From the NCBI GenBank assembly GCA_017541275.1, contig JAFXZM010000038.1, positions 1 through 55,238 on the forward strand: DNA of 55,238 nt. The letters are read 5' to 3'. The notes beneath the pieces are model-generated. The model was not told the DNA's origin and did not search any database. It saw nothing but the letters and a program-made list of their open reading frames with translations. The translations under genes and the position numbers were made by a program. Origin of the DNA: Oscillospiraceae bacterium. GTDB lineage: Bacteria; Bacillota; Clostridia; Oscillospirales; Ruminococcaceae. Below are positions 24,976-51,676 of the stretch, in pieces. Position 1 is the stretch's first letter, and each line of letters begins with the position of its first letter.

Positions 24976-26781
24976 TTACAGGCTCCAGTTCAGCAGCCGG
25001 AGCAGATCGGTATTCAGGAGCTGCATTTCGTGATTGCGCATCGGGTATCCGCCGGTGAGCAATGCCTGAATGTAAAGAATTTCGAGGCAGCAGTGCAGCT
25101 TTTCGCTGTCATGCACCTGCATGAGCCGCTGAATGAGCGCATTGTCGGTATTGAGGTAGAGCTTCGCGGCGGCATCCTCGCGGTATTCCTCGGCAAAGGA
25201 ATTGAGCATGCCGCGGAACATTTCGGCGGTTTTCTCCATTGAGCGGCGGATATCCCGGAGCAGCAGGGCTTCCTCATTGACGGTATAGAGCACAGGCAGG
25301 CTTGCAGGCTCAAACCGCTTCAGCGCGGCGGAGCAGTCATAGGGGCGGAGCAGCTCATTGCATTCCGCCAGCACGACCAATGCCGCAGCGGTATCATCGA
25401 GCTTGGGGTTTTCGAGCATCGCATCGACGCGCTCCATTTTGAGCTGCCTGACGGAAATCTCCGGCTTCAGCAGTGTCATGCGTGTAAGGAGCTGCGCAAC
25501 ATAGGTATATCCGGCATTGACCAGCAGGGTGTTTTTCGCGCGGGAGATTGCCGAGAGCTGCCGGAATTCATCGAGATAGGCGGTGTACATCACCGGCATC
25601 TCCATTTCGAGGAGATGCGAGCCGGTCAGCGTACCGAAGGAGGTCTCGAAGGTCAGATACGGGAAAAAGGCGCGGTAGAGGTCGTCATCCTCAACGGCAA
25701 CGGACTGCACGGCGAGCCGGTGAATGCGGACAATGCGCTGAAGCAGTGTATCGTTATGCAGTGCAAGGCGCTTGAGGTGCCGCGTGATGCAGTCGGAAAT
25801 CTCCTGCCGTGCGCGGAGCAGCGCCTCATTTTCATAGAAATCCTCACGCGAGGCGGTCGGCTGAAGACCGTTCGTGTTGATGAAGCAGCGCAGGAAAAAC
25901 GCCCATTTCGGGAGCAGCTTTGTGCCGTCCTCAGTCAGCAGCATATTTTTGAGATAGATGCGGTGTGAATGCTTGGCGGTCGGGGCGGTCTCCGAGGCGA
26001 GGATATATGCCACGCCGGAGAACAGCCCGCTTGGGGAATCCAGCGGAATAAAGCTAAGGAATCCCGTATGAAACAGTGCTTCGCCGAGGCGCATGACCTG
26101 TTCGGTCTGCGTATCGCCCTCCGGGAAGGGCGGGTTCAGGCGGGTGACGGTTTCGCCCTGCACAAGCCGGATCGGTTCGGGCAGCGGCAGTCCGTAATAC
26201 TGCACCAGCTCCGTGAGGCGCTCGGCGGTGAAGTAGGATTCCGCGTCTTTTTTCGGCATCAGCAGAATGCGCGTACCGGGCTGCGGGAGCGGCTCGCAGG
26301 GGCGGATTGTGTAAGTGCCGTCCGGTTTTCCGACCCATTCCAGCGACTGCTCCGGCGACTGCACGGAGCAGGTCTGCACGGTAATCTCATCCGACACGAG
26401 AAAGCACGACAGCAGCCCGATGCCGAATCTGCCGATATAATCGGACTGCACGCTGCCGTTCGTGAGATCGTGCTTCGAGGACTGTCCGATGACCGCGAGA
26501 AACCGGTGAATTTCGGCCTCAGTCAGTCCGGTGCCGGTGTCTGCAAAGATCAGCAGCGGCCTGCCGTCCTGCTCGGTAAGCGTCAGCGTAACCGCATTTT
26601 CGGAGCGGTCGCCGGGATATTTCAGCCGCTTGGCCGCGATCGCGTCAACGGCATTTTGCAGCAGCTCCCGGACAAATACATCCGGGGAGCTGTAAAGATG
26701 ATTCGATAAAATGTCGATCATGCCGCCGAGATTGACCTGAAACAGATAGGGCTCTCCGGCATTCTTTTTTTCGTCCGGCAT
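24976..26781 (-). CDS. HSP90-family chaperone-like ATPase
   Basis: 601 residues. The GHKL ATP site is intact: ELLQNAVDAI (Glu39, Asn43, Asp46), ADTGTGLT (Asp81) and IGRFGIGLLSCF. The middle domain continues with RIYLKNMLL, and NTNGLQPTASREDFYEN holds the Arg corresponding to the catalytic-loop arginine. The C-terminal third is divergent from HtpG. This is the shorter HSP90-family group distinct from canonical htpG. It starts 13 nt after the macro-domain gene, so the two are co-transcribed. Client proteins are unknown. Confidence 0.87.
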   Translation of the reverse strand: MPDEKKNAGEPYLFQVNLGGMIDILSNHLYSSPDVFVRELLQNAVDAIAAKRLKYPGDRSENAVTLTLTEQDGRPLLIFADTGTGLTEAEIHRFLAVIGQSSKHDLTNGSVQSDYIGRFGIGLLSCFLVSDEITVQTCSVQSPEQSLEWVGKPDGTYTIRPCEPLPQPGTRILLMPKKDAESYFTAERLTELVQYYGLPLPEPIRLVQGETVTRLNPPFPEGDTQTEQVMRLGEALFHTGFLSFIPLDSPSGLFSGVAYILASETAPTAKHSHRIYLKNMLLTEDGTKLLPKWAFFLRCFINTNGLQPTASREDFYENEALLRARQEISDCITRHLKRLALHNDTLLQRIVRIHRLAVQSVAVEDDDLYRAFFPYLTFETSFGTLTGSHLLEMEMPVMYTAYLDEFRQLSAISRAKNTLLVNAGYTYVAQLLTRMTLLKPEISVRQLKMERVDAMLENPKLDDTAAALVVLAECNELLRPYDCSAALKRFEPASLPVLYTVNEEALLLRDIRRSMEKTAEMFRGMLNSFAEEYREDAAAKLYLNTDNALIQRLMQVHDSEKLHCCLEILYIQALLTGGYPMRNHEMQLLNTDLLRLLNWSL

Positions 26782-26794
26782 AACAGCCTCCCTT

Positions 26795-27892
26795 TTATGC
26801 GCCGATCAGGAGCTGATCGTATTCAAACAGCGCCTCATTGATTTCATACACATTATAATTGCCCTTGCGGATAAAATACTCGACGATCAGGTCGAAGGTA
26901 TTGCTCGGAGAGAGCGCAAAGCCGGCCTTTTGCAGCATATCGTTTGTTTCGTCGAGGGGTAGCTCCAGTGCGATTGCAAAGGCCAGCACCGTGACCTTTT
27001 TCGGCTGATAGTGCAGATCGCTGCGGATTTTCGAGAACAGCTTGCGGTCGATGTTCGCCTTTTTGTAGCACTGCGCATCGGTCATGCCGCGCTCGTCGAT
27101 CTTCCGCAGAAGCATCTGTGAGAAGCTCTCGTCCGGCGACTGCAAAATGCTTTTGAGCGTTGATGGGATGGCGGCGGGCGCAGCAAAGCTCTGCATGTCC
27201 GTATCCTCCCGCAGATATTCTGCGGGCGCGGACGCAATTTCCTTTCTTCGGCGGAACAGTGACCGGCGCGGCTTGGGTTCGGCGGCATCCTCTGCGCATT
27301 CCTCCGCCGGCGCAGCCGCTGCGCGAAATGCCGCAAGCGGCACAGAGCAGTTCATGCCGGACGCAGCCATGCCCGACATTCTGTGAACAGCCAGCCAGCG
27401 CTCGATTTCCGGATTTGCGGGATATCCGGCCGGCGGCGTAAACAGCACCAGATACACGGTCATTTCATGCGCGGCGAGAAATTCCGCGATTGCCCTGATC
27501 GCAGCGGACTGTGCCTGCTGTCTGGGGTAGCCGTAAGCGCCCGCAGAGATCAGCGGAAAGGCAACGGTCTCACAGCCGTACTGCTCCGCGAGCGCAAGGC
27601 TGTTCCGGTAGCAGGCGGCGAGAAGCTGCGGCTCCCCATTTGTGCCGCCCTGCCAGATCGGCCCGACCGTGTGGATAACGTAGCGGCAGGGGAGGCGGTA
27701 GCCCCTGGTGATCTTCGCCTGACCGGTTTCGCAGCCGCCGAGCGTCCGGCATTCTGCGAGCAGCTCCGGCCCCGCGGCGCGGTGAATGGCACCGTCCACG
27801 CCCCCGCCGCCGAGCAGCGAGCTGTTTGCGGCATTGACGATCGCGTCGCAGTGAACGGTCGTGATATCTCCGCGGATCATGTGCAGCGGCAT
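26795..27892 (-). CDS. Macro domain fused to a C-terminal helical (HTH-like) domain
   Basis: 365 residues. The macro domain (1-165) has [20 protein letters not shown] (Asn20, Asn23, glycine-rich loop) and [11 protein letters not shown], typical of ADP-ribose or O-acetyl-ADP-ribose hydrolases. A low-complexity Ala/Arg linker (about 166-260) joins it to a conserved-looking helical domain (262-365: [57 protein letters not shown]). The second part reads like a helix-turn-helix or DNA/RNA-binding module. The gene is probably an ADP-ribose-handling regulator. GGAAAGGGGAG precedes the ATG. It pairs with the HSP90-family gene. Confidence 0.85.
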
Positions 27893-35000: not shown

Positions 35001-35513
35001 TTATTCCTCAGCAGGTGCATCCCCCGGCTCAGCAGGGAGATCCGCATCCTCCGGCTGCTCGGCGGGAATCTCTGCATCCGGCAGCTCATTCGTGACTCTG
35101 ACAGCGGCGGGCTCTGCTCCGAGCGTTTCTTCAATCTCATCATACACGGCGAACAGATCCTCCGCACATTCCTCCAGCCGCTTGCAAATGTGTGAATCCA
35201 GCTCCAGCGCATCCCGCAGAGCATTCAGCGCGCGCCGTTCCTCAGGGGCTTCAAAACCGTCGCAGACAGCAAATGAATAAAGCTCCATGTATACCTTCCG
35301 CTTGCTGGTTTCATTGAGCTGCGACATGGTAAAGCGCGCAGCCGCAGATGCCGCAGCATCATAGGTAAAGCCGGTGACACCCAGCGCCGCTGCATATTCC
35401 TCAAGCAGCGCATCCTCCTCAGCGGTCACGATGCCGTCCTCCTCGATCAGCTCTGCCGCCAGAGTCAGAAACGCCTCCGCCTCGATCCGTTCAAATTCGT
35501 GTAAAAAAAGCAT
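35001..35513 (-). CDS. TerB-like helical protein
   Basis: 170 residues, acidic and almost wholly helical. The middle reads LAAELIEEDGIVTAEEDALL, then KVYMELYSFAVCDGFEAPEE. Paired acidic helix-loop motifs of this kind are seen in TerB/DUF533-type proteins linked to tellurite and envelope stress. The C-terminus (130-170) is a Pro/Glu/Asp-rich disordered tail. The ATG at 35513 has AAGGAAGGGA upstream. The assignment rests on motif pattern only. It has its own promoter, divergent from nadE. Confidence 0.6.
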   Translation of the reverse strand: MLFLHEFERIEAEAFLTLAAELIEEDGIVTAEEDALLEEYAAALGVTGFTYDAAASAAARFTMSQLNETSKRKVYMELYSFAVCDGFEAPEERRALNALRDALELDSHICKRLEECAEDLFAVYDEIEETLGAEPAAVRVTNELPDAEIPAEQPEDADLPAEPGDAPAEE

Positions 35514-35575
35514 TGGGTAATCCCTTCCTTTCCTCATTTCAGACGGCTTGCCCGCAGGCAGATTCCGTTATTCTT

Positions 35576-36430: not shown

Positions 36431-36437
36431 TCAATTT

Positions 36438-36468
36438 GCCCCGCCTGTGAACAGAACACAGGCGGGGC
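36438..36468. terminator. Bidirectional terminator after nadE
   Basis: Perfect 12-bp stem GCCCCGCCTGTG/CACAGGCGGGGC with a 7-nt loop, followed on the plus strand by ATTCGTTTTC. It also lies downstream of the minus-strand eight-gene cluster, which ends at 36556, and is the only terminator seen for it. Confidence 0.88.
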
Positions 36469-36555
36469 ATTCGTTTTCAAAAACAGGTTGAGAACAGACA
36501 TCGCAGAGGCCGCATAATATGCAGATGATGCTGCCGCGGCCGCGCTCTGCTGCTG

Positions 36556-37743
36556 TCAGTTTTCAAGCGGCTGCTGCTGTACGTTCGGGCGCGGGTAGCC
36601 GTTGTGCTCGGTCGCATTGACCTGAAGTCTGCATACCGGACGGAGCTGCTTTGCAAATTCCCGCACGGCCGATGGCTTGTCAAGCGACTCCGCAACCGAT
36701 TTGACCGGTTCTTTATCATGCTTCTGCTCCTGCGGCGGCTCCTCCGGACGGTCCGGCGGGGGCGGCGGCGCACTGTGCGGGAATTCTCCCGGCGCAGGCG
36801 ACATGAACTGCATCATTTCACGCGGCTTCGGCGGCTGCCGGCGCAGCTCTGCACGCACATTTTGCAGAATAAAACCGCAGACCTTTGCAGGTACCGTAAA
36901 CGACCGCAGCGCCTTGCCGGTGATGAAATCCTCCGGCTTGCAGTCCTGCTCCTGAAGTGCGGTCATTGTCCATGAAAAAAACAGCTCCGATACCCGGTGC
37001 AGCATTCTGAAGCTGAAGCCAGCCGTTTTATCGGCAAGCTCCTCCGGCTGCATTTCGCAGATCACAAGCGGGTAACGCTTTGTCATTTTCGTGAAGAAGA
37101 CTCTGCGCTGCGGGGTATCCGGCTGCTCCAGATGCAGCACGGTAAAGACCCGGCGCAGGCAGTCGGGCAGATCGCCCGGCGCACACTCGCAGCGTCCCGT
37201 TACAATGCACATGCGGTCGGGGTCTTCGAGCATGCCCTCCAGCCAGTCTGCGAGCCGCTCCGCCAGACGCTTCTTCCGGAGAACCGGCTTCAGATCGCCG
37301 AGCGACAGATACAGGCAGACCTCACTGTAGCTTTCTTTTTTCCGGAGCGCCTCCAGCGCGGTAAGATAAGCCTCCAGGCGCTGTGCGGTCTCCTCCTTTG
37401 TTCCGCCGCGGATCCGCCGGAGCGGAATGCCGTAATACCGGAAGCTGTTCTTTCCGTAATCATCAAATACGCGGAAGGCCAGCGCTGTATCAAGCGTGCG
37501 CTTGCCGCTGCCCTCCTGTCCGGTGAACAGGAAGGCGCGGCCCGGTGTAAAGGAGGGCGCACTGTTTAAGAACGGGTGAAATGCGGCGGGCTGCTCGCTG
37601 TCATCCAGATAAGGGAGTGACCCCATGAGGATGCGCGCATGCTCTGTGCGGCCGATCAGCGTATCAAATTCCCATTCGGGATCGGGCGACAGATTCAGAT
37701 CGACAAAGCAGCTCTCCGGGTCGAAGGTAAACCGTTCAGCCAT
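36556..37743 (-). CDS. AAA-like ATPase with degenerate Walker B (cluster gene 8)
   Basis: 395 residues. Walker A is GQEGSGKR (75-82), preceded by EFDTLIGRTEHARILMGSL, an AAA N-terminal region. At the Walker B position the strand reads CLYLSLGDLKP, without the usual Asp-Glu pair; CIVTGRCE could be sensor 1. A helical lid region follows (about 225-310), then a Pro/Glu-rich disordered tail (320-395). It may bind ATP but hydrolyse it poorly. It starts 6 nt after the partner AAA+ gene, suggesting a catalytic/regulatory ATPase pair. Last gene of the cluster. Confidence 0.6.
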   Translation of the reverse strand: MAERFTFDPESCFVDLNLSPDPEWEFDTLIGRTEHARILMGSLPYLDDSEQPAAFHPFLNSAPSFTPGRAFLFTGQEGSGKRTLDTALAFRVFDDYGKNSFRYYGIPLRRIRGGTKEETAQRLEAYLTALEALRKKESYSEVCLYLSLGDLKPVLRKKRLAERLADWLEGMLEDPDRMCIVTGRCECAPGDLPDCLRRVFTVLHLEQPDTPQRRVFFTKMTKRYPLVICEMQPEELADKTAGFSFRMLHRVSELFFSWTMTALQEQDCKPEDFITGKALRSFTVPAKVCGFILQNVRAELRRQPPKPREMMQFMSPAPGEFPHSAPPPPPDRPEEPPQEQKHDKEPVKSVAESLDKPSAVREFAKQLRPVCRLQVNATEHNGYPRPNVQQQPLEN

Positions 37744-37749
37744 GGCAGC

Positions 37750-39030
37750 TTAGTCCTGCATCTGGAACGGCTCGTCATCCTCCTCGTCCAGCGGTTCATC
37801 ATCCTCATTGAGATTGCGGCGCTTCCAGTCGGCGATCGCATCGAGGATATCCTTCTTCGGCGAGGGCTTGAATTTCGAGAGTGCCTGCTCCCACTTTGCG
37901 CGGGTGAGCTGATAGGAGCCGTTCCGCAGTGCGCCGATCGCGGCAAACTGGTTATCGTACTGCTCCAGCACATCCTTGAACGCCATGCGCTTGATGCGCG
38001 TCGAAAGGCGCTCGATGTCACGGTAATTGTAGTCCGGAGTCTCGGCGGCCATTTCGCCGTAGCCGAGGCCCTTTTCGTTAATCAGGATATTCTCGAACCG
38101 CTTGCGGAGCGCAGCCTCTCTTGCCTCAAGGTCGGGCAGCGGCACCTCAATGACCTCCACACGGTCGAGCATTGCGGAATCCACACGCTGCGGATAGTTT
38201 GTCGCACCGATGAAGATGACCTTGGAATCAGAGCTGTGGATGCGGTTGAAGCCCGTCAGGAATGATGTCGTGATGTTCGCGGCATATTCCGGCAGGTTGG
38301 GCAGAGAACGGTTTTTGCACACGCTGTCGATTTCGTCGATGAACACGATGCACGGGGCGTTTTTCTCCGCCTCCTCGAACAGTCTTGTCACGATCTTTTC
38401 CGCATCGCCGACATAGCGGCTGATGATATCGGAGCCCTGAAGCGAGAGGAACTTGTAATCCTTTTCCATGAGCTCATGTGCAAAGGCCTCGATGATATAG
38501 GTCTTGCCGCAGCCGGGAGGGCCGACGAAGAAATAGGAATTCAGATGCGGAATTTGCAGGAAATCCATCAGCTCCTCGGATTTGGCATCGGAGAGGCAGC
38601 TCTGGAGCTTTTTCTTCAGCTCGATCATACCGGACACATCCTCAAACGAATGCCGCGGCGCCTCCTTATACCATGTTCTTGCGGTACGGTCGAGCGCCTC
38701 CTCATCCTTGGTCTTTTCGTCCTTGGCTGCGCCGTCATCCTTGCCGTTCTTCTTGGCATCGCCGCCCTTGGCTGCGGTCGGATTCAGCTCCTGCCGGATC
38801 TTCATGATCTCGTAATCCAGACGGTTTTTCTCGCGGGTATGGCGTGCCTGCTCCGCACCGATCGAGATCTGCGCCATTTCAAATTCAAGGTCGGCTGCCA
38901 TTTGCAGAAAACGGCACTCCTGCTCACTCGCGGCATTGTTATTCTGCGCACGGGTCGCTCTGGCCTGCTTCTGATAGTTGGCGCTCATGGTCTCCTTTTT
39001 CAGAAAATTGGTCGTGAATTTACTTTCCAT
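37750..39030 (-). CDS. AAA+ ATPase of the VPS4/p97/FtsH type (cluster gene 7)
   Basis: 426 residues. The N-terminal part (16-85) is helical and charged, followed by a Lys/Asp-rich linker (86-115). The AAA+ core begins SFEDVSGMIELKKKLQ and has Walker A GPPGCGKT (170-177), a pore-loop-like RYVGDAEK, Walker B CIVFIDEIDS (227-236), sensor 1 in IGATNYP (Asn278) and Arg290 in SAMLDRVEVIEVPLPD. The tail is strongly acidic. No protease or membrane domain is present, so it is probably an unfoldase or remodelling motor. An alternative start at 38988 (MSANYQKQ) is possible: GGAGA lies close before it, while GGAGG lies 12 nt before 39030. Confidence 0.87.
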   Translation of the reverse strand: MESKFTTNFLKKETMSANYQKQARATRAQNNNAASEQECRFLQMAADLEFEMAQISIGAEQARHTREKNRLDYEIMKIRQELNPTAAKGGDAKKNGKDDGAAKDEKTKDEEALDRTARTWYKEAPRHSFEDVSGMIELKKKLQSCLSDAKSEELMDFLQIPHLNSYFFVGPPGCGKTYIIEAFAHELMEKDYKFLSLQGSDIISRYVGDAEKIVTRLFEEAEKNAPCIVFIDEIDSVCKNRSLPNLPEYAANITTSFLTGFNRIHSSDSKVIFIGATNYPQRVDSAMLDRVEVIEVPLPDLEAREAALRKRFENILINEKGLGYGEMAAETPDYNYRDIERLSTRIKRMAFKDVLEQYDNQFAAIGALRNGSYQLTRAKWEQALSKFKPSPKKDILDAIADWKRRNLNEDDEPLDEEDDEPFQMQD

Positions 39031-39052
39031 AATGACTTAACGCCTCCGTTCA

Positions 39053-39937
39053 TCAATGATTTCTGATATAATCCAGACACGCAGCAGCATTTGCGCCTTC
39101 CATTTCTGCGGTTGTCATGTCAATATTGCTGAGTGAAACCGGTGCAGTCTGCCCGTGTGCTGCCATTTCCTTTTCCGCATTTTCGGTTGCCTGAACCAGC
39201 TCTGCGGGCTGCACGCTGAGAAATACGCCGTTCTTTGCGGCATCCTCGATTGCCTCCTTGCTCAGTCCCTGCATATCGGCGTTCTGCGCCGTCACGAGCA
39301 GATCGGTGGCGGACTGGGAAAGGCCCTCCTCCTCCATCAGCTTGTCGATCGGCGTCATGAAATAGCGCTCGGAGTTGATCGCGGATACATCACTCTTGAT
39401 GCCGAACTTGAACTTCTGATACCAGAGCGAAATGCGCGTCATCCAGTCGGAGCCTGTTGAGATTGCATTGATTGTTTTGTAGCCCTTGGTGAGATCGCGC
39501 ATGATCTGCCGCCACTCATGCTCCTGCGGCATTTCCTTCAGGCGCTCAAGCGTCTGCTGCACCAGTGCAAGCGCATAATACGCATTCTTCCACTTCGTTT
39601 CGAGCTTGCGGAGCTGCGCATCACGACCCGGCGAGGGCGGCTGCTTCTGCCGGAAGGCAATCTCCTTCTGTGCAGAAAAGATAATCTCGGAGAGCTGGTC
39701 CTTGATGACCCACATCTCACCCTTTGTCTTATCAACCTGCTCGATCAGCTCTGTTTTGGAGAGCTGCCGGTCCACGAAATCCAGATCGGAGGCGCGCTTG
39801 ACCTGCTCGCGCTTGCGGTTTGCCGCCTCCATGCGGGCATTGTTCAGATCCTCCAGCGTATTGAGGCGTCTGTCCTCTTTATCTGCGGCCTTTTTGACCT
39901 TTTTTGCTTCGCGCTTCATGCGGAATTCATCAAACAT
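39053..39937 (-). CDS. Helical coiled-coil protein (cluster gene 6)
   Basis: 294 residues, not recognised. The N-terminal third is very basic (EFRMKREAKKVKKAADKEDR) and predicted helical, the middle is a heptad-rich coiled coil (KTELIEQVDKTKGEMWVIKD), and the C-terminal third is acidic. A short conserved-looking end LDYIRNH closes the protein. The basic-then-acidic helical layout next to a VPS4-like ATPase recalls ESCRT-III and PspA proteins, but I see no diagnostic motif, so this is only a hypothesis. Confidence 0.6.
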   Translation of the reverse strand: MFDEFRMKREAKKVKKAADKEDRRLNTLEDLNNARMEAANRKREQVKRASDLDFVDRQLSKTELIEQVDKTKGEMWVIKDQLSEIIFSAQKEIAFRQKQPPSPGRDAQLRKLETKWKNAYYALALVQQTLERLKEMPQEHEWRQIMRDLTKGYKTINAISTGSDWMTRISLWYQKFKFGIKSDVSAINSERYFMTPIDKLMEEEGLSQSATDLLVTAQNADMQGLSKEAIEDAAKNGVFLSVQPAELVQATENAEKEMAAHGQTAPVSLSNIDMTTAEMEGANAAACLDYIRNH

Positions 39938-39961
39938 GGTTCAGATTCTCCTTTCTTCGCA

Positions 39962-41263
39962 TCAGCCCATATCGGCAAGAATGCGGTTGTCCTCATCGTT
40001 TTCGACCACCTGCGGCTCATTGTCGATCGGAGGCGGTGCATTGAGATTTTCGGTGTGCTGCCGGTTGAAATCGTTGTTGGCCTTTTCCATATCCTTGCGG
40101 AGCTGTCTGTGCTCACGCGATTCGACCGCGGCCTTGCCCCATTCCTCATTGTTTGCGGCGGCGGCGACAAGGCTCGAAAGCCGGCGGCTCATCTCATAGG
40201 CCTGCATCTCGGAGCGGTACATTTCGTTGATATCCTGAATGGTCTGCTCCGTGATGCGGTTGAGCTCTCTTGCGACCTCCTCCTCGCTGTAGGTCTCGCC
40301 CTGTTCATTGAAGCGCTTTCTCGCTTCGCCGAGGAAGGTGATGAGCTGGGAGCGGAGCTTCAGGATATCCGCCTCGCGGCGCTCAATTTCAAGCCCCTGA
40401 AGCTCAACCTGCGAGAGACAGGTGCGGGCAAAAAGCTCCTGATCGAGGAACGGACGGATCGGATGCCCGATCGGATACTTTTCGAGCACGCCGCTGAAGC
40501 CGAGCGTTTCAAATTCCTCCTGATAATTCTCCGGAATCGCCGAAAGCGATTTATCTGCCTCCTTGTATTCGCCCATGACCTTTTCGTAGTTGCCCTCGAC
40601 CGTGGTCAGCGATGCCACATCGCCGTAAATTTTATCGGCGGTCTGGATTGCTGCCCAGAAGGTCTTTTGGATGACATCCTTGCGGCGTTCGAGGCTCTTT
40701 CTGCGCTCCTCGTCATTTCTGCCCTCGGGGGCTCTGTTATGCACCACAAAAACCGCATACTTCAGCACATCCCAGCAGACGTCGGCCTTCAGCTTCTGTC
40801 CGTCCTCCAGTGCCTCGCGGAATTTTTTGATGTACGGCCGGATCAGCGGGTCGATCTCGTCGGCGCCCAGCAGGCGGGATTCCGCTGCCGAATAGGATTG
40901 ATACACGCCGATCAGCGCATCGACCTGATTGCGGTATGCCTGAAGCTCCGGCGGCATGATATAGAGATCGTCCTCCAGATGCGAACGGCGTTCGAGCTTA
41001 TAAGCCGTATCCGGATTCTGCTCCTTTGCGGCATCCAGTGCGGCGCGGTTTGCATCTGCCGTTGCTTCGTTATTCCGTGCGGCATTGGCCATTGCATCGT
41101 GAAATGCCGGCGACTGAAGCTCTGCAAGATCCTCGATCAGATCATCGAGCTTGACGCGGGCATCCTTCATGCCCTGCTGCTCCTCCTGAATTGTCGGCTC
41201 CAGCGGTGCAGGCTCCGGGATCGGTGCTGTGTTGGCTTGTTTCTTCTTTCCGAACAGTCCCAT
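39962..41263 (-). CDS. Long helical protein (cluster gene 5)
   Basis: 433 residues, unknown family. Starts MGLFGKKKQ, then a Pro-rich stretch (10-25), and is helical to about residue 390 with several coiled-coil segments (LDDLIEDLAELQSPAFHDAM; VELQGLEIERREADILKLRS). The end (400-433) is Asn/Pro/Asp-rich and disordered. It has no signal peptide or membrane helix. It precedes gene 6 by 24 nt and is probably a structural partner in the same complex. Confidence 0.6.
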   Translation of the reverse strand: MGLFGKKKQANTAPIPEPAPLEPTIQEEQQGMKDARVKLDDLIEDLAELQSPAFHDAMANAARNNEATADANRAALDAAKEQNPDTAYKLERRSHLEDDLYIMPPELQAYRNQVDALIGVYQSYSAAESRLLGADEIDPLIRPYIKKFREALEDGQKLKADVCWDVLKYAVFVVHNRAPEGRNDEERRKSLERRKDVIQKTFWAAIQTADKIYGDVASLTTVEGNYEKVMGEYKEADKSLSAIPENYQEEFETLGFSGVLEKYPIGHPIRPFLDQELFARTCLSQVELQGLEIERREADILKLRSQLITFLGEARKRFNEQGETYSEEEVARELNRITEQTIQDINEMYRSEMQAYEMSRRLSSLVAAAANNEEWGKAAVESREHRQLRKDMEKANNDFNRQHTENLNAPPPIDNEPQVVENDEDNRILADMG

Positions 41264-41284
41264 AAGATATTCCTCCGTATGATA

Positions 41285-41773
41285 TTATGATAGCATCCTG
41301 ACCGCATCAGACAGGATGTAGTCGTCCTTGCTGCCGACTGCCAGCCGGAATGTGAAGGCATCGTCGCCGGACAGCCCGATGCACGAGCGGCTCACGGCGT
41401 GATCCGGCGAAAATGTGACGGCCTGCTCCCGCGGCATTCCGCCGTTCTGAATGCGGAGCCGCACCGTAAAGCTGCGGTCTGAGGTCAGCGGCTCGCATTC
41501 CAGATCCGACCAGAGTATTTCGCCCGGCTTCAGTGCTGCGGCCGTGCCGACCGTGTGCCATGAAGTGCCGGATTCCGTTACGCCGGATCCGCTGACCTCA
41601 TAGCTGTAAATCTGCATTTCAATGATGATCTGCGCGCGCTTTCTGCTGCGGAAGTCTTCGAGCATTTTCGTATATTCCGGTGAGCTGTCTCCGGCGACAA
41701 GCACCGGAAATCCGCAGGCCGGGCATTTTGCCACGCCCTCTGCGACCGCTGCATGACAGCAGTTACATTGCAT
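41285..41773 (-). CDS. Zinc-ribbon protein with beta-rich C-terminal domain (cluster gene 4)
   Basis: 162 residues. The N-terminus has a zinc ribbon: MQCNCC (Cys3, Cys5, Cys6) and CPACG (about 18-22). Residues 25-50 look helical, and 50-162 form a beta-strand-rich domain (IIIEMQIYSYEVSGSG; DRSFTVRLRIQNGG). Such ribbons often mediate protein contacts. It overlaps the end of the 844-residue coiled-coil gene by 11 nt, showing tight coupling. Confidence 0.65.
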   Translation of the reverse strand: MQCNCCHAAVAEGVAKCPACGFPVLVAGDSSPEYTKMLEDFRSRKRAQIIIEMQIYSYEVSGSGVTESGTSWHTVGTAAALKPGEILWSDLECEPLTSDRSFTVRLRIQNGGMPREQAVTFSPDHAVSRSCIGLSGDDAFTFRLAVGSKDDYILSDAVRMLS

Positions 41774-44297
41774 ATTGATTCACCCTGCTTTCTGTTTCTT
41801 CGATGATATTGATGTATTCTGTTTGCAGCCCTGCCATGGCTGCGGATATGCTTTCAAGCTGCTGCTGCAAAAACACCTGCTTTTCCTTCAGCAGCGGCAT
41901 GCCCTCCTGCATGAAATACTCTGCGGGGATGTTCTTGCCGCAGAGGTCTGCAACCGCATCCTGATAGATCTGAAGCACTGCCCCGCAGCGTCGGATCTCC
42001 TGCTTTGCCGCAGCATACTGCTCCGGATTGAAGGCTCTCTGGAATTCCGCGATATCGGCGGAATAGGTCTCAAGCTGCTGCTTGACCGTCCGCGAATCCG
42101 ATTCCAGCTCATAGAGCTTTGCCTTTTCGTCCTCCGCCTGCTTTTTCAGCGCCTCATACTGCTGCGCGGCATTCCGGCTGCTGACCCGCACGCCCTCGAT
42201 CTCCTGCGTTACTGCGGCGATCTGTGTGTTCGTTTCTTCACATTCCCGCTGCAGTGCCGCGAGCTCGTCATTCAGCGTATTGAGCTGCGCCTGAAGCTGT
42301 GCGGCATCGGAATTATCGCGCATATGCTGCTTTTCGTTAATTTCCCGGATGAGGCTCTGCTGCTTCTCGCCGAGCTGCTGTATCTCGGCATCGACCTGCT
42401 CTGCCTCTGCCTGCTTCTGCCCGACTGCCGCCTGAAGCTCGCTGCGCGTCTGCTCTTTCGCCTGATGCGCCGCTGCGGCCTCCTCGTATTCCGCCTGCAC
42501 GGCGGCGAGCGCCTGCTCCAAAGCGACCTTTTCCTCCAGCAGCTTGGTTTTCTGCCCTTCCTGATAGCTGATGCTGTATTTGAGCGTCGCCTTTTCCTTC
42601 TCGCATGCTTCGTTCTTTTCCTTCAGCTCGTTCATCAGCGATTTCTGGCTGTCGCGCTCCGCCTCAGACTGCTGAAGCGCATCCTGCATGGCCGCTGCCT
42701 CACTGCGGAGCTGCTCCGTTTCGCCGCGCAGCGCTTCCAGCTCTGCGCTCAGACGGCTGTGCGTCTGTTCTGCCGCATCGTGCTCCGCCTGAACGGCCTC
42801 CCGCGAGGCCTGCATTTCCTCCGTCCCGGCGGTGAGCTCTGTAAGCCGCTTCCGGAGCGCTTCAAGCTGCTCCTCCGTGTTTCTGCGGTTTTCCTCCGCC
42901 TCCGGAAGAAGCTGGTCGCTGAGTGCTCTGCATTCATCACATGCGCACCGGTATGCTTCCTCGGCCTCATCGCGCTTCTGCCGGATGTCAGAGATCATCA
43001 GCTCGTTCGTCCGGTAGGATTCCTGCGCGACCTGCAATGCCTGCTCGGCAGCGTCCTTTTCGGCATTCTGTTTTTCGATCTGTTCCTGCAATCCGGCCTG
43101 CCTTGTCTGAATTGCCTCAAGTTGTTCTGCAGCTTCATCGGCCAGAGCCTGAAGGCGGTCTGTCTCATCCTGCTTCAGCTTCAGTTCGACCTTTCTGCCG
43201 TTCAGAACGTTCAGCGCCTCCGCATATTGTTTCTGCGCATCCGGAAGCTCCTCCGTGTCGATCGCATCTGTTTCTTCCCTGATGCGAACGAGTGCGGCCT
43301 CCGCATCATCGCGCCGCATTTTCGCGGCTGCAACGGCCTGCTCCGCATTCAGAAACGCCTGCTCTGCATCGGCGCGGGCCTGCTCGGCGGCGGCCTCCTC
43401 GGCCTTTTGCTTTTCAATCGCCGCCTGTATCTCGCTGCACCGTTCGCACAGCTCCGCAAGCCGGCCGCCTGTCTCATCGGCTGCTTCTGTCAGCGCTGCG
43501 GTTTTCGCCTGGAGCTGCTCCAGCTCCGCATTTTTTGATGCCAGCGCGTGCTGTGCGTCTGTCAGCGCATGCTGTGCTGCCGGGAGCTGTGCGTCCTCGA
43601 TTTCCGCATGCGTCTGCCGCAGCCGTTCTGTTTCCTCATTCAGCGACTGAAGCTGCCCGTGCAGGTCATTCAGTGCGCTCTCAGCGGAATCCCGTGCGGC
43701 CCGTGCGGCATCTGCCTCTGCCTGCATCTCTGCGGCCTGTGTCCGGAGCGATTCCAGCTCGGCCTGCTGCTGCTTCCGGCTTTGCAGCTCCTGCTCGATC
43801 ACCGCCCGCTGCTTCATCAGCGCATCGGCATCCGTTTCCGGCATTGCGTCGAGTGACTTTTGCAGCGATTCGACCTCTCTGCGGGCATCCTCCAGATCGG
43901 CTGCCTGCATTTCCCGCTGCTGCTTCAGCTTTTGCAGAGCGGCTGCCTCGGCATTCAGCCGTTCCAGCTCCGCAGCGCCCTGTTCCAGCTCTGTCTGCAT
44001 CTCTGCGGTTCCCGCATGCCGCTCCGACAGCTCCTTCTGAAGCATCTGCATCCGCTGCTGCTGCTTTTCGGAGAGCTGCACTGCTGCATCCTCCATCGGC
44101 ATCCGCAGCAGCGCATGTGCGACCGTCCGCCATTTTTGCAGCGCGGTATCGTCGGGCGGAAGCTGCGCCGGGCCGCTGCCTGTCTCATCCTGTATATCCT
44201 GCATCACATCCTGCATGACCGCGAACATCTCACCGAGCGTGAGGCTGCTCTGCCGCTGCAAATTTTGCAGGCTTTGCTTTGTTCTCGAAAATATCAC
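41763..44297 (-). CDS. Very long coiled-coil (SMC-like) protein (cluster gene 3)
   Basis: 844 residues, dominated by heptad repeats rich in Glu, Gln, Ala and Leu from about residue 70 to the end, for example QLSEKQQQRMQMLQKELSER. The first 65 residues (IFSRTKQSLQNLQRQSSLTL, then EMFAVMQDVMQDIQD) are a distinct helical head. Unlike SMC or Rad50 it has no Walker motifs, so it is a rod or filament protein and not an ATPase. It begins 1 nt after the Hsp70-like gene ends. Confidence 0.7.
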   Translation of the reverse strand: MIFSRTKQSLQNLQRQSSLTLGEMFAVMQDVMQDIQDETGSGPAQLPPDDTALQKWRTVAHALLRMPMEDAAVQLSEKQQQRMQMLQKELSERHAGTAEMQTELEQGAAELERLNAEAAALQKLKQQREMQAADLEDARREVESLQKSLDAMPETDADALMKQRAVIEQELQSRKQQQAELESLRTQAAEMQAEADAARAARDSAESALNDLHGQLQSLNEETERLRQTHAEIEDAQLPAAQHALTDAQHALASKNAELEQLQAKTAALTEAADETGGRLAELCERCSEIQAAIEKQKAEEAAAEQARADAEQAFLNAEQAVAAAKMRRDDAEAALVRIREETDAIDTEELPDAQKQYAEALNVLNGRKVELKLKQDETDRLQALADEAAEQLEAIQTRQAGLQEQIEKQNAEKDAAEQALQVAQESYRTNELMISDIRQKRDEAEEAYRCACDECRALSDQLLPEAEENRRNTEEQLEALRKRLTELTAGTEEMQASREAVQAEHDAAEQTHSRLSAELEALRGETEQLRSEAAAMQDALQQSEAERDSQKSLMNELKEKNEACEKEKATLKYSISYQEGQKTKLLEEKVALEQALAAVQAEYEEAAAAHQAKEQTRSELQAAVGQKQAEAEQVDAEIQQLGEKQQSLIREINEKQHMRDNSDAAQLQAQLNTLNDELAALQRECEETNTQIAAVTQEIEGVRVSSRNAAQQYEALKKQAEDEKAKLYELESDSRTVKQQLETYSADIAEFQRAFNPEQYAAAKQEIRRCGAVLQIYQDAVADLCGKNIPAEYFMQEGMPLLKEKQVFLQQQLESISAAMAGLQTEYINIIEETESRVNQYAM

Positions 44298-44298
44298 A

Positions 44299-45936
44299 TC
44301 AAGCGCCTCCCGACCCGCTCAGAACAATGTTCTCGAACATATCCTTCAATGTGGAAAGCCGCAGGGATGCGATCGGCTTTTCCTCGCGCCGTTCGAGATT
44401 CATGTCATAATTATACACATGTACCGTGATGCGCTCGCCCGCATCCATTGAGAAGCCGATTACCACGACATAGCCCGAATGAATCGACTTGAGCTGCGCG
44501 GCAAATTCCGGCTTTGGCTTCATCGGCATGGCGGTTTCTGCCCGCTTGCCGAAGTTCAGAAGGAATTTGTCAATATTGCCTGCGATCATATGGAACGGTG
44601 CGCCGTTGTCATCCAGTGCGAAATAGACGCGGTCGGCGACGATCTCCTGTCCGAAGTTGATCGCAAAGCGGTTGAACAGAGAGCCGTCCGGATAGCGGGC
44701 ATAGGTACCGATCGAGAACTGCGCGATGTTGCAGACCGTCAGCACATTGTCCGCAAACAGTGCCGCGCCGTGTGCGATCGCGGTCTCGCGCTGCTCCTCC
44801 TCACGGATCATGCCCTTCGTGCGCTCGTCGATCTGTGCGATCTTGAAATAATCGTAGATCTGCTTGCGGACCAGATAGAAATTGCAGAAGCCGCCGACCA
44901 GCGCAATCCGGAGCTTTGAGATATCCTTCATGTCTGCCGTGGTTTCATCGAGCACGCGCTGAAGCACCGGCGCGATGACATTCTGATAGCAGGCATAAAG
45001 CTGATAGTAGCTGATTTCGACCGGTTCTCCGTGATATTCGACATCGCAGAACAGCTCATCGCGCAGGCCGTCGGTATCGAAGCTGTATTCGTCCATTGTT
45101 TCCGCGATCTCGGCCGTTGCGGAGAGAAGCTGCTCCTCCAGCGATTTCAAAAACTGGTTGAAGTGGGAATCGCAGGGAATCTCCTCGGGCTTTCCGCCCA
45201 GCGCCTCACTGATCGCCATGCGCGCAACCGCCTCCTGAAAGGCGATGCCGGCTTCGCCGATCTCATTGTCGCGGTTTTCGCCGGCGCCGCTGCGCATCTC
45301 CGGCTTGATCTGCATTTTCCCGCCGTTCTGCCGCACATCGACCAAAGCGGTATCCAGCGTGCCGCCGCCGTAATCGACGACAAGAATCTTGCCGTTGAGC
45401 GGCTCCTTGTATTCCTGCTCGTAATTCCAGACGCAGAACGCTGCGGCATTTGTCGGCTCACTGACGATGCGCACCCGCTCGACCAGATCGGTCATGCTGC
45501 TGCATATTTCACGGAGCGTGCCGCGCGCATCGACCGTCCGGAGACTCTGAAACCAGCATTCCGGCGCGCCGATGACTGCCGTGCCGACCTTATCCTCTCC
45601 TCTGACGCGCAGCGTGTTGGAGATCACATAGCGCAGAAATTCTGCGGTAATGCGCTCCGGCGTGTGCTCGCTGTCATAGCCCCGCAGCGCCAGATTTTCA
45701 GCGCTCATCTGCTGATTCAGCAGCATTTTGAAGCCGCGGAACGCAATCGTCTGGCTGCTGCCGATCTTCGAGCGTGCCGCCTTGCCGCAGATGTATTTTT
45801 CCTTTCGTTTATCGTATACAACCACCGACGGATAACTGTAGGATAACCCGTCCGGCTGTACGGTCGCCGGCGCGCTGCCCTCATAGACCGATACCATTGT
45901 ATAGGTGCTTCCGAAGTCAATGCCGATATTGATCAT
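44299..45936 (-). CDS. Hsp70/actin-fold ATPase (cluster gene 2)
   Basis: 545 residues, shorter than DnaK. The actin-fold ATP motifs are clear: phosphate 1 IGIDFGSTYTMVSVY (4-18), the connect motif SEPTNAAAF, phosphate 2 VVDYGGGTLDTALVDV, and the adenosine motif RIALVGGFCNFYLVRKQ. After the ATPase domain, a beta-rich C-terminal part (about 400-545) may be a reduced substrate-binding domain; the helical lid of DnaK seems absent. No dnaJ or grpE is nearby, so it is a specialised Hsp70 homologue serving this cluster. Confidence 0.85.
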   Translation of the reverse strand: MINIGIDFGSTYTMVSVYEGSAPATVQPDGLSYSYPSVVVYDKRKEKYICGKAARSKIGSSQTIAFRGFKMLLNQQMSAENLALRGYDSEHTPERITAEFLRYVISNTLRVRGEDKVGTAVIGAPECWFQSLRTVDARGTLREICSSMTDLVERVRIVSEPTNAAAFCVWNYEQEYKEPLNGKILVVDYGGGTLDTALVDVRQNGGKMQIKPEMRSGAGENRDNEIGEAGIAFQEAVARMAISEALGGKPEEIPCDSHFNQFLKSLEEQLLSATAEIAETMDEYSFDTDGLRDELFCDVEYHGEPVEISYYQLYACYQNVIAPVLQRVLDETTADMKDISKLRIALVGGFCNFYLVRKQIYDYFKIAQIDERTKGMIREEEQRETAIAHGAALFADNVLTVCNIAQFSIGTYARYPDGSLFNRFAINFGQEIVADRVYFALDDNGAPFHMIAGNIDKFLLNFGKRAETAMPMKPKPEFAAQLKSIHSGYVVVIGFSMDAGERITVHVYNYDMNLERREEKPIASLRLSTLKDMFENIVLSGSGGA

Positions 45937-45954
45937 GTCTGCCGTTCTCCCTTT

Positions 45955-47475
45955 TTATCTGACCGGATAATTCCGGATCGTATTATAATCCCTTGTGTGG
46001 AATACCTCCGCCGTTTTCTGTGTAAAGCGCACGGCCTCCTCCTCCTCGAAGGGCGCCTCCGCGGATTTCTTCATGCAGAAGCGCACTGCCTCCGCTGCCT
46101 TCAGGAAGGTCTTGTCGCATGTGAGATGATAGTCGTCCGTACCGGGTGCGGCCTTTGCATCCTCCCGGCACATCGTAAACAGCACGAACAGCAGATACAT
46201 AATCCCGCTGTCCCAGTGATTCCATTCGTTTTTTCGCCGCAGCGAATCAAACAGCTCCGAAAAAGGCTTCCGGCTTTCGGCATTGCGGAATTTGCAGAAG
46301 GTCGGCTCACTCGTGTTTTTGACATGCAGGAAATCCGGTGCGCGGAATTCCTCGGTCATGTCTGTGATCGCGGTCAGCTCGCCGGCCTCAAGCAGGTCCT
46401 CATGGCCGCGCAGCAGTGCCCGGTACTGCGTCAGGATGCTGACGATATCCTGTGCGGTCTCCGCCCGCCGGATACAGAGCGGCGGCGCCTCTGCAAACTG
46501 TGTCACAAACTGCGCCGGATCGGTCAGCATTTCCTGCTGCACGGTCTCTGCCAGACGCATCCGGAAGGCAGGATCGCTGAGGTTTTCGATCAGAACACTG
46601 CGCTTGCGGAGCGGGTTTTCCCGGCAGCCGAGCTGAAAATGCTTATCGCGGAAATGCGGGTCGGTGTGCCATGCCCAGAGAACTGCTGCTGCCACATCCG
46701 CCCGGCCGCAGTCCTGCTGCTCCGGGTGACGGATATAGGCATACCGCGCCGCCGCCTGCACATCCGCATAGCTGAGACTGTTCCAGCAGACCATGCGGCT
46801 GCCCAGCGCCCGCTGGATTGCCGCGTAGCGGTCTATGCGGTATGAGGACTGTCCGCCAAGCGCCGACGCAATCTCCGGAAACAGCTCCGGACGGCACAGA
46901 AATCCCGGCGGAAGCGCTGAATTTGCCCCGCCGATCTCCGCGGACGGAACCCGGAACATCGCATCGGTCTCCGCGGCCTTGGGCTGCATTGTCAGAATCA
47001 TGACACTGCCGCGGCGGTGCGTCTGACCCGCAAGCTGCTGCATCAGCGACGGGTTCTGCTGCACGAGCTTCTCAAGCAGTGCCGCAGGCATCGCAACGGC
47101 CGTGCTGCCCTTCATCGCACTCAGAACCGCCGAGAGCCGTTCAGCCAGCTTTTCTTCCGGGAGCACCTCACGGTCCACTGCACAGTCCGTGAGCGTGCTG
47201 TTTTCGGATTTATTCTTGAAAATAGACGAGAAAAAGCCCTTTTTCTGCTCATTCATCAGCAGCCCGTAGCTCTGGCTGCCCACCCACTGCATCTGATAAT
47301 CCTCCGCGCTGCTTTTTTCTGACGGGAAAAACAGAAAAACATTGCGGAAGCCTGCGCTGTACATCTGCCAGCGGAGGTGTGCCAGAAAGTGCATCCGGAT
47401 ATAGCCCGGCGTGTAATAGTCATCATCGTAATTTGCAAACAGCAAATGAAAAAAGCCGTCGGCCGCATCAAACAT
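45955..47475 (-). CDS. Unknown 506-residue cytoplasmic protein (cluster gene 1)
   Basis: Not recognised. No signal peptide or membrane helix. Alternating strands and helices such as NVFLFFPSEKSS, GSTAVAMPAALLEKLVQQN and RGSVMILTMQPKA recall a degenerate P-loop/AAA-type fold, but I see no Walker A. The middle and C-terminal parts are helical. The start at 47475 (MFDAADGF) was chosen because GGAGAGG lies upstream and the longer frame to 47526 would run through the operator-like palindrome and begin almost at the transcription start. It is the first gene of the eight-gene unit. Confidence 0.6.
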   Translation of the reverse strand: MFDAADGFFHLLFANYDDDYYTPGYIRMHFLAHLRWQMYSAGFRNVFLFFPSEKSSAEDYQMQWVGSQSYGLLMNEQKKGFFSSIFKNKSENSTLTDCAVDREVLPEEKLAERLSAVLSAMKGSTAVAMPAALLEKLVQQNPSLMQQLAGQTHRRGSVMILTMQPKAAETDAMFRVPSAEIGGANSALPPGFLCRPELFPEIASALGGQSSYRIDRYAAIQRALGSRMVCWNSLSYADVQAAARYAYIRHPEQQDCGRADVAAAVLWAWHTDPHFRDKHFQLGCRENPLRKRSVLIENLSDPAFRMRLAETVQQEMLTDPAQFVTQFAEAPPLCIRRAETAQDIVSILTQYRALLRGHEDLLEAGELTAITDMTEEFRAPDFLHVKNTSEPTFCKFRNAESRKPFSELFDSLRRKNEWNHWDSGIMYLLFVLFTMCREDAKAAPGTDDYHLTCDKTFLKAAEAVRFCMKKSAEAPFEEEEAVRFTQKTAEVFHTRDYNTIRNYPVR

Positions 47476-47514: not shown

Positions 47515-47541
47515 TAAATAGTACATGAATAATCAATCTTA

Positions 47542-47570
47542 ATTATAGCATATTTTGTGAATTGAGTCAA
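47542..47570 (-). promoter_or_regulatory. Promoter of the eight-gene cluster
   Basis: Minus-strand TTGACT (47565-47570), 17-nt spacer, TATAAT (47542-47547). No comparable promoter was noticed inside the cluster. Confidence 0.87.
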
Positions 47571-50896: not shown

Positions 50897-51676
50897 ATGG
50901 GATTGTTCAAGGATTATATTAACGCGATTCTTTTTCAGGAATACGGAGGTCTTGGAGAATCTCTTTCAGAGAAAAAACTGAAACATATGCGTTTGTTCGG
51001 ATATGACGGCATGATTCTTCGGAATCTTTATCTTCCGGCTGATCGGGATCAAACATCAGAAATCGACCTTGTATATATCACGCAAAAGGGCATTTTTGTA
51101 ATCGAGAGCAAAAATTATTCCGGTTGGATTTTCGGCAACGACAAAGATCAGTTCTGGACGCAAATGCTGCCGAACAGACAGAAAAACCGTTTTTATAATC
51201 CGATCAAACAGAATCAGACGCATATCAAATGGCTTTTGTCCTATCTGGAATCAGAGGTTCCGGTGTTTTCTCTGATTGTGTTCTCTGAGCGCTGTGAACT
51301 GAAGCGGATTGATTTTGAGACACAGCGTACAGGAATCTGTAAACGCGATGAATTGTCCGGAACGATCAGCGAATTCTGGAAGCATACAGAGGACGTCCTT
51401 TCGTCTGAACAAATACAGCAAATCTACAAAAAACTCGAACCGCTAACCCAAGCGGACGAAGCAACCAAACAGGCTCACATTGACAATATCCAAGAGAAAT
51501 ATGCGGCGAAACCAGTTGAAAAAACTGATGCGGAGATACCGCAGCAAAGTCGCATTTGTCCTCGCTGCGGTGCGCCGCTTATTTTGAGAACGGCACGAAA
51601 AGGAACACGCGCTGGAAAGCAGTTTTACGGCTGTTCTTCATTTCCAAAATGCAGATATATCGAAAATATTGAGTGA
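50897..51676 (+). CDS. NERD-domain protein with C-terminal topoisomerase-type zinc finger
   Basis: 259 residues. The NERD (nuclease-related) domain covers about 15-130, with EIDLVYITQKGIFVIESKNY carrying the Asp...Glu-x-Lys pattern of PD-(D/E)xK folds. A helical linker follows, then a zinc ribbon (about 220-250: CPRCGAPL, then CSSFPKC) of the DNA topoisomerase I C-terminal type. It probably binds or cuts nucleic acid. It sits between gatA and gatB, is clearly AT-richer than both, and lacks a strong ribosome site, all suggesting insertion into the operon. Confidence 0.87.
   Translation: MGLFKDYINAILFQEYGGLGESLSEKKLKHMRLFGYDGMILRNLYLPADRDQTSEIDLVYITQKGIFVIESKNYSGWIFGNDKDQFWTQMLPNRQKNRFYNPIKQNQTHIKWLLSYLESEVPVFSLIVFSERCELKRIDFETQRTGICKRDELSGTISEFWKHTEDVLSSEQIQQIYKKLEPLTQADEATKQAHIDNIQEKYAAKPVEKTDAEIPQQSRICPRCGAPLILRTARKGTRAGKQFYGCSSFPKCRYIENIE

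Follow-up and report, generated by a model that had tools for sequence, protein, structure and literature searches.

The DNA analysed here (the window) is a 55,238-nucleotide (nt) stretch of contig JAFXZM010000038.1 from an Oscillospiraceae bacterium, and it carries an operon of eight genes, g1 to g8, that almost certainly belong to one conserved system. Our preferred reading, to which we give about an even chance, is that the products of g1 to g8 work together as one remodelling machine powered by ATP, whose most likely role is defence against phages or plasmids. The genes are eight adjacent open reading frames (ORFs) on the minus strand, running from position 47475 down to 36556 in the ORF listing and separated, from g1 to g8, by gaps of 18, 1, -11, 21, 24, 22, and 6 nt (coordinates in Table 1). 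The first-pass annotation of this DNA had described eight consecutive, closely packed minus-strand genes, and the ORF listing and the gaps agree with it.

To follow the operon in other genomes, a genome collection was scanned with g2, the Hsp70 gene. Thirty stretches matched, eight of which encode a relative, giving seven further loci (L013 to L019) whose source records name Oscillospiraceae, Ruminococcus, Clostridia or Clostridiales; for three of the relatives the sources are roe deer duodenum, sheep omasum, and water buffalo rumen. All eight genes stand in identical order in seven of the eight loci (the window, L013, L014, L015, L016, L017 taken together with L027, and L019). In the remaining locus, L018, the contig stops inside g2, and g3 to g8 lie on a second contig (L026) from that genome; the two pieces presumably adjoin. 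The rod gene of L019 was identified from where it lies and from its similarity to the rod of L026 (E 7.6e-17), not to the window rod. Three loci contain a ninth gene, described below; in the four other eight-gene loci the gaps are -11 to 35 nt, and L017 has a single gap of 769 nt, from g4 to g5. Between the window and L019 the identity is 61% for g7, 50% for g2, and 22-30% for the remaining six genes; for g1, g3, g5, and g8 the range is 22-26%, yet the gene order is kept. The two ATPase genes, g2 and g7, are thus held tightly while the other six drift. The ratio of non-synonymous to synonymous substitution rates (dN/dS) is 0.04-0.26 for each of the eight genes in the comparison of the window with its closest relative, L015. 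All eight are under purifying selection, and therefore none of them is a chance ORF. The first-pass annotation had claimed one system and had asked whether the eight genes stay together elsewhere; they do, with the eighth locus split, and homologues scattered without a conserved neighbourhood were looked for and did not appear.

Among the eight proteins, g7 is, by its motifs, a complete classical AAA+ ATPase. GPPGCGKT, SRYVG, FIDEID (with the DE of Walker B), ATN, and R290 are invariant in all eight orthologues, so that every copy has the motifs needed for catalysis in AAA+ hexamers of the threading type. Pfam assigns g7 to AAA with 114.6 bits, corroborating the earlier description as a VPS4/p97-like AAA+ protein, and the NCBIfam ranking is CDC48 (115.3 bits), CdvC (104), and FtsH (98), with none of the three reaching its cut-off. 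The g7 proteins of the nine-gene loci have an additional C-terminal stretch of roughly 130 residues. The product of g8 had been called a second AAA-like ATPase, and probably only the first half of that name holds. Its profile aligns with that of g7 over 254 columns (hhalign probability 97.5, E 5.8e-12, for a pair run without a shuffled control), Pfam does not recognise it (best E 0.12), and a relationship to DNA polymerase III delta' was set aside (E 0.087, only the P-loop area covered). The residue after the P-loop Lys is Arg or His in place of Ser/Thr in all eight orthologues, the Lys itself is Arg in two of them (L016 and L019), and by eye the Walker B area shows no DE pair after the next hydrophobic strand. 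Because of this altered P-loop and the missing DE pair, g8 is a degenerate AAA relative and probably non-catalytic.

The Hsp70 assignment of g2 is firm in Pfam (PF00012, 68.6 bits, cut-off 20.6; MreB reaches only 19.1). In an alignment with the genome's own DnaK, the phosphate motifs DFGST, EPT, and DYGGGT are present in 8/8 copies, and all seven complete orthologues keep the beta domain and end after it, as expected from the earlier claim that this Hsp70 lacks a lid; in L018 the contig end truncates the gene. For g1, previously listed as an unknown protein, there is now a weak likeness: residues 8-168 align with the N-terminal region of the SpoVK-like AAA proteins of three other Hsp70 loci (L010 to L012, discussed below) with an hhalign E of 5.4e-4, a probability of 30, and a score of 38 against 13.0-21.8 in five column-shuffled controls. 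No GxxxxGK[ST] P-loop occurs in g1 in any of the eight orthologues. We regard the resemblance as a lead, not proof.

The remaining proteins are less readily classified. The earlier description of g3 as an 844-residue rod is supported by its core, whose 685 residues include 5 Pro and 13 Gly; we attribute its matches to SMC, JetC, and crescentin models to coiled-coil composition. The g4 protein had been called a zinc-ribbon protein, and the paired cysteines (CxCC...CPxCG) are indeed present in all eight orthologues, but the Zn_Ribbon_1 match (E 0.02) falls below the Pfam cut-off, and we call it zinc-ribbon-like. For g5 and g6, searched with eight members each in Pfam and also in NCBIfam, no family rose above chance; one g5 relative gave a chance-level HEPN_Apea match (E 0.024). 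PDB profile searches with g6, g5, and the g7 N-terminus returned chance-level matches only.

The operon has one strong promoter, as had been claimed: the sigma-70-type site upstream of g1 is the top-scoring of 12 sites in the scanned stretch, in which 6.4 are expected by chance, and its consensus matches are given in Table 1. For g1 a start at 47475 is preferable to the one at 47526 that gives the longest ORF, because a GGAGAGG-like site lies upstream of it, because the start at 47526 would leave only a few bases between promoter and start, and because MFxA is found at this position in seven of the eight g1 orthologues (L019 has MFNH). The claim of one terminator is weakly supported. The hairpin at the operon end is strong, but its good T-run serves the convergent nadE gene, and the tail on the operon strand, AATTGATTAT, barely clears the terminator scan.

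Table 1 Features of the eight-gene operon in the window
Feature	Length	Position	Strand	Remarks
Promoter, sigma-70 type		47542..47570	-	TTGACT-17-TATAAT with extended TG; 11 of 12 matches in promoter scan
g1	506 aa	45955..47475	-	Residues 8-168 weakly like the SpoVK-like AAA N-terminal region
g2, Hsp70	545 aa	44299..45936	-	Nucleotide-binding domain and beta substrate domain, no helical lid
g3, coiled-coil rod	844 aa	41763..44297	-	Relatives 624-1066 aa
g4	162 aa	41285..41773	-	Zinc-ribbon-like N-terminus with paired cysteines, then about 130 residues of unrecognised fold
g5, helical-looking	433 aa	39962..41263	-	F4, G5, and K7 (window numbering) invariant in 8/8
g6, helical-looking	294 aa	39053..39937	-	Conserved central block
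g7, classical AAA+ ATPase (p97/VPS4-like)		37750..39030	-	Conserved N-terminal domain
g8, degenerate AAA-type protein		36556..37743	-	From profile comparison with g7
Hairpin common to operon end and nadE		36437..36469		13 pairs; T-run good for the + strand only

The clearest pointer to a function comes from the ninth gene. In three of the eight loci (L017/L027, L026, and L019), g7 and g8 are separated by a gene for a 486-491 aa protein, which starts 12-31 nt behind g7. The L019 copy is BrxL by TIGR02688 (417.6 bits, cut-off 329.3) and by PADLOC (666.8 bits, profile positions 4-481 of 482), the copies of the other two loci are 61-62% identical to it, and the P-loop APKETGKS and a DE pair are kept in all three. 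As a component of the bacteriophage exclusion (BREX) systems, BrxL belongs to types 1 and 4 only. The best of 298 matching plasmid records is the BrxL of a Methanosphaera BREX type 4 system (42% identity over 98%), whose gene adjoins pglZ and a PAPS-reductase-family gene. PglZ (PF08665) was not found over cut-off in any of the eight operon genomes, with weak matches in G000 and the L013 genome on other contigs, and the BrxL of the nine-gene variant therefore lies outside BREX. These are draft genomes, the window's own being 75.6% complete, so that absence from elsewhere in a genome is weak evidence and absence from the operons, which were read, is firm. PF13337 is absent from the genomes of L013, L014, and L016; in the L015 genome a broken BrxL-like fragment with several stops (G477:C250:5608-5934) lies on a contig other than that of the operon. 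Two of the nine-gene loci encode related large proteins upstream of the operon (L017 461-2287 and L018 5706-7541), the former with RCC1 repeats (Pfam), and no counterpart was recognised in L019.

The operon is accessory. A g2 match at E 1e-60 or better was found in 4 of 30 genomes of the genus, namely the window and three that correspond by identity to L013 to L015, and the operon of this close kind occurs in no other genome of the family, order, and class samples. An Hsp70 of the wider kind (E 1e-20) is encoded in 2 of 196 other family genomes and 1 of 294 other order genomes, and g5 to g8 are absent from these three loci. Likewise, the only genome with g5 among 197 of the family, and the only one with g6 among 391 of the class, is the window's own. 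The neighbourhoods differ between operon loci: L013 has scpA (by Pfam) together with a gene resembling rpoC by eye, L014 has what by eye are gyrase-like genes, and the window has nadE and gatCA (by Pfam). Ten congeneric nadE regions were found and seven fetched, and none of the seven contains g1, g2, g7, g8, the lipoprotein gene, or gatCA. This comparison yielded no exact empty site, because the right-hand neighbours of the window operon do not stand beside nadE in any of the seven. No att-like boundary was detected, in that the flanks of the operon share no exact words of 10-40 nt, direct or inverted.

Several other genes of the window were noted. The ORF at 35001-35537, beside nadE, is TerB-like by eye, has no Pfam match, and matches PADLOC PDC-S48 (1.6e-5); it is kept beside nadE in one of the seven congeners (L069, 89% identity). 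The ORF at 50897-51676 lies between gatA and a gatB-like gene, interrupting the gatCAB order, is NERD-like by eye, and has partial PADLOC matches to PglW (E 1.2e-8) and MkoA (E 5.6e-7). At 24976-27892 an Hsp90-like gene adjoins a macro-domain-like gene (both by eye), and the former (ORF 24976-26781) partially matches TmtA in PADLOC (8.6e-13).

That the eight proteins form a protein-remodelling machine is likely, and a defence role is what we lean towards, though only slightly. In such a machine, the g3 rod with g4, g5, and g6 would form a scaffold on the invading complex, sensing or loading in a nucleotide-dependent manner would fall to g1 and the lidless Hsp70 g2, and g7 would thread proteins (scaffold or target) through its pore with g8 as a non-catalytic partner. 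In the nine-gene variant, BrxL, which elsewhere is a ring encircling DNA, may act on the invading DNA, and the eight-gene variant would have to rely on something else. BrxL is reported to form an ATP-dependent ring that binds DNA, and its ATPase site to be required for phage restriction (PMC10164562). The first-pass annotation had left stress response, membrane remodelling, and defence side by side; defence is now favoured because of the BrxL variant, the patchy distribution, and the differing neighbourhoods.

A number of results weigh against a defence machine of this kind. The window operon itself lacks BrxL (Pfam), and its genome gives no PF13337 match. No nuclease is recognisable among its eight proteins in Pfam, and the PADLOC matches of g1 to g8 are to generic AAA, coiled-coil, or chance-level models only. 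Out of ten neighbouring or other proteins, only BrxL matched PADLOC end to end; the window surroundings, in which three ORFs have partial PADLOC domain matches (PglW, TmtA, and PDC-S48), are no defence island. Many defence systems ride on mobile DNA; here, no relative of g2 was found in phage or plasmid records (E 1e-15) or viral contigs, and none of g7 in plasmids at E 1e-25, its phage matches being distant (27-34% identity in the 20 of 35 listed, the annotated ones mostly FtsH). The ATPase cycle of g2 is a further concern. Lys70 of DnaK is the catalytic lysine, and in all eight g2 copies its column holds Gly, inside an invariant RGFKM, so that g2 may hydrolyse ATP poorly; an Arg stands directly before this column and a Lys two after it, and a shift of one or two residues in the alignment would place Arg or Lys there.

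Among the papers listed in the literature searches we found no named system with this gene set, in keeping with the earlier statement that none was known; subscription papers and supplements lay mostly outside the search, and a description there is possible. Several described systems share features with the operon. BREX type 4 resembles the nine-gene variant in its short BrxL (N-terminal domain and ATPase, without the C-terminal domain), and type 4 BrxL is described as lacking C-terminal extensions (PMC12839542), but the operon genomes lack PglZ over cut-off (0/8), no PAPS-reductase-like match occurs among g1 to g8, and the window variant has no BrxL. The GTPase-centred HSP70 conflict systems (PMC7159879) include an Hsp70, in a subset without the peptide-binding domain, in multi-gene conflict operons, but no TRAFAC GTPase, GAP1, vWA, or tubulin match was found among the eight window proteins (Pfam). 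CoCoNuT systems (PMC11090510) contain Hsp70-like domains, coiled coils, zinc ribbons, and AAA ATPases, but the same eight proteins give no McrC domain (DUF2357) or HEPN nuclease match in Pfam. Lastly, g7 is partially similar to IetA of IetAS (PADLOC 93.6 bits), but it scores 73.8 bits against a cut-off of 510 with the NCBIfam IetA model, and no protease match occurs among the eight.

Features are also shared with the Hsp70 loci L010, L011, and L012, in which an Hsp70 lies near short coiled-coil and zinc-ribbon-like proteins and a protein with an N-terminus weakly resembling g1. Unlike the operon, they have no match to g5, g6, g7, or g8 at E 1e-4, and in L010 and L012 the same polypeptide carries, besides the g1-like region, a pair of SpoVK-like AAA domains and a trypsin-like domain (the large g1-like protein of L011 is cut by the end of the fetched stretch). 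The gene order of L010 is g1-like, one extra coiled-coil gene, Hsp70, rod, and zinc-ribbon-like, and its zinc-ribbon-like protein beside the short rod is a g4 homologue (E 6.6e-8). Because of this order, a four-part core (g1-like, Hsp70, rod, and zinc-ribbon-like) may be older than the present operon. The N-terminus of g3 showed no similarity to the short rods of L010 to L012, so that their kinship is by position only. These loci (L010 5870-14085, L011 1-10491, and L012 9866-19756) seem to form a second, undescribed Hsp70 locus family; leucine-rich repeats accompany the zinc-ribbon-like proteins in L012, and an NrdG-like radical SAM gene is present in L012 and, by eye, in L011.

Other functions were weighed against defence. 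DnaK hands clients to ClpB, and on this model the operon could be a protein-quality-control or stress module in which the Hsp70 passes clients to the AAA+ unfoldase, with the rod and the zinc-ribbon protein as adaptors. The pairing of Hsp70 with AAA+, the CDC48/VCP-like unfoldases as nearest AAA relatives of g7, and the Hsp90-like gene of the window (by eye) are consistent with it. However, the genome owns a separate DnaK (804 bits), the eight proteins have no DnaJ, GrpE, or protease match in Pfam, and both the patchy presence (4/30 in the genus) and the BrxL variant would be unusual for housekeeping chaperones. We consider this explanation unlikely.

We rate as quite unlikely a bacterial membrane-remodelling machine akin to the endosomal sorting complex required for transport (ESCRT) or Cdv, in which g5 and g6 polymerise on the membrane as ESCRT-III-like helical subunits, g7 with its N-terminal domain disassembles them like Vps4, and the Hsp70 and the rod recruit it. 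A classical AAA+ protein with a conserved N-terminal domain does stand here beside two helical-looking proteins with basic starts; g7 matches CdvC (104 bits) and, in PDB, VPS4B, and g6, as read from its sequence, starts basic and contains long stretches that look helical. The g7 pore-loop block SDIISRYVG-x-AEK presumably resembles that of VPS4/katanin, and we take the FGKKK start of g5 to resemble CHMP proteins. VPS4-like ATPases have been transferred to bacteria, where snf7 was replaced by an unrelated gene (PMC11237479). On the other hand, the operon adds Hsp70, rod, zinc-ribbon-like, and degenerate AAA genes, and the CdvC score of g7 is 104 against a 650-bit cut-off and lower than that for CDC48 (115 bits). 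Insensitive tests detected no ESCRT-III or MIT homology in the operon. No Snf7, PspA, or MIT Pfam match was obtained with eight members each of g5, g6, and the g7 N-terminus; for the latter, conserved as it is, no MIT match came from PDB or the operon of the eight genomes either, by the same insensitive method. With PF03357 and PF04212 in the eight genomes at E up to 10, there were weak sub-cut-off matches, none recognisably at the operon. The hhalign scores against reversed controls were 24.5 vs 24.9 for g6/PspA, 15.6 vs 14.5 for g6/Snf7, 14.4 vs 19.3 for g5/PspA, and 17.4 vs 21.0 for g5/Snf7; PspA and Snf7, which are true relatives, also failed this test with each other, so that these scores are no real negative.

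A rod-based, AAA+-moved apparatus that positions or segregates part of the chromosome, a mobile element, or some cellular structure is also quite unlikely: the long rod g3 and the weak SMC and crescentin-like coiled-coil scores agree with it, but such scores are typical of many coiled coils, no ParA-like or DNA-binding family match occurs among the eight proteins, and g2 scores far higher as Hsp70 than as MreB. Least probable of all is a defence machine of ESCRT type, with a g5/g6 polymer at the infection site, g7 and inactive g8 remodelling it, the lidless g2 and a sensor as the trigger, and BrxL, a DNA ring derived from BREX, plugged in to act on DNA in one group.

If an ATP-driven defence machine is the right reading, the operon would be an undescribed multi-gene system that joins Hsp70 and p97/VPS4, two ATPase families well known from eukaryotes, within one operon; it would also show BrxL at work outside BREX. 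Should the defence role prove mistaken, there would still be a conserved machine of eight proteins without an assigned function. The role of BrxL in BREX is still debated, and a setting without PglZ or methyltransferase would allow it to be tested separately.

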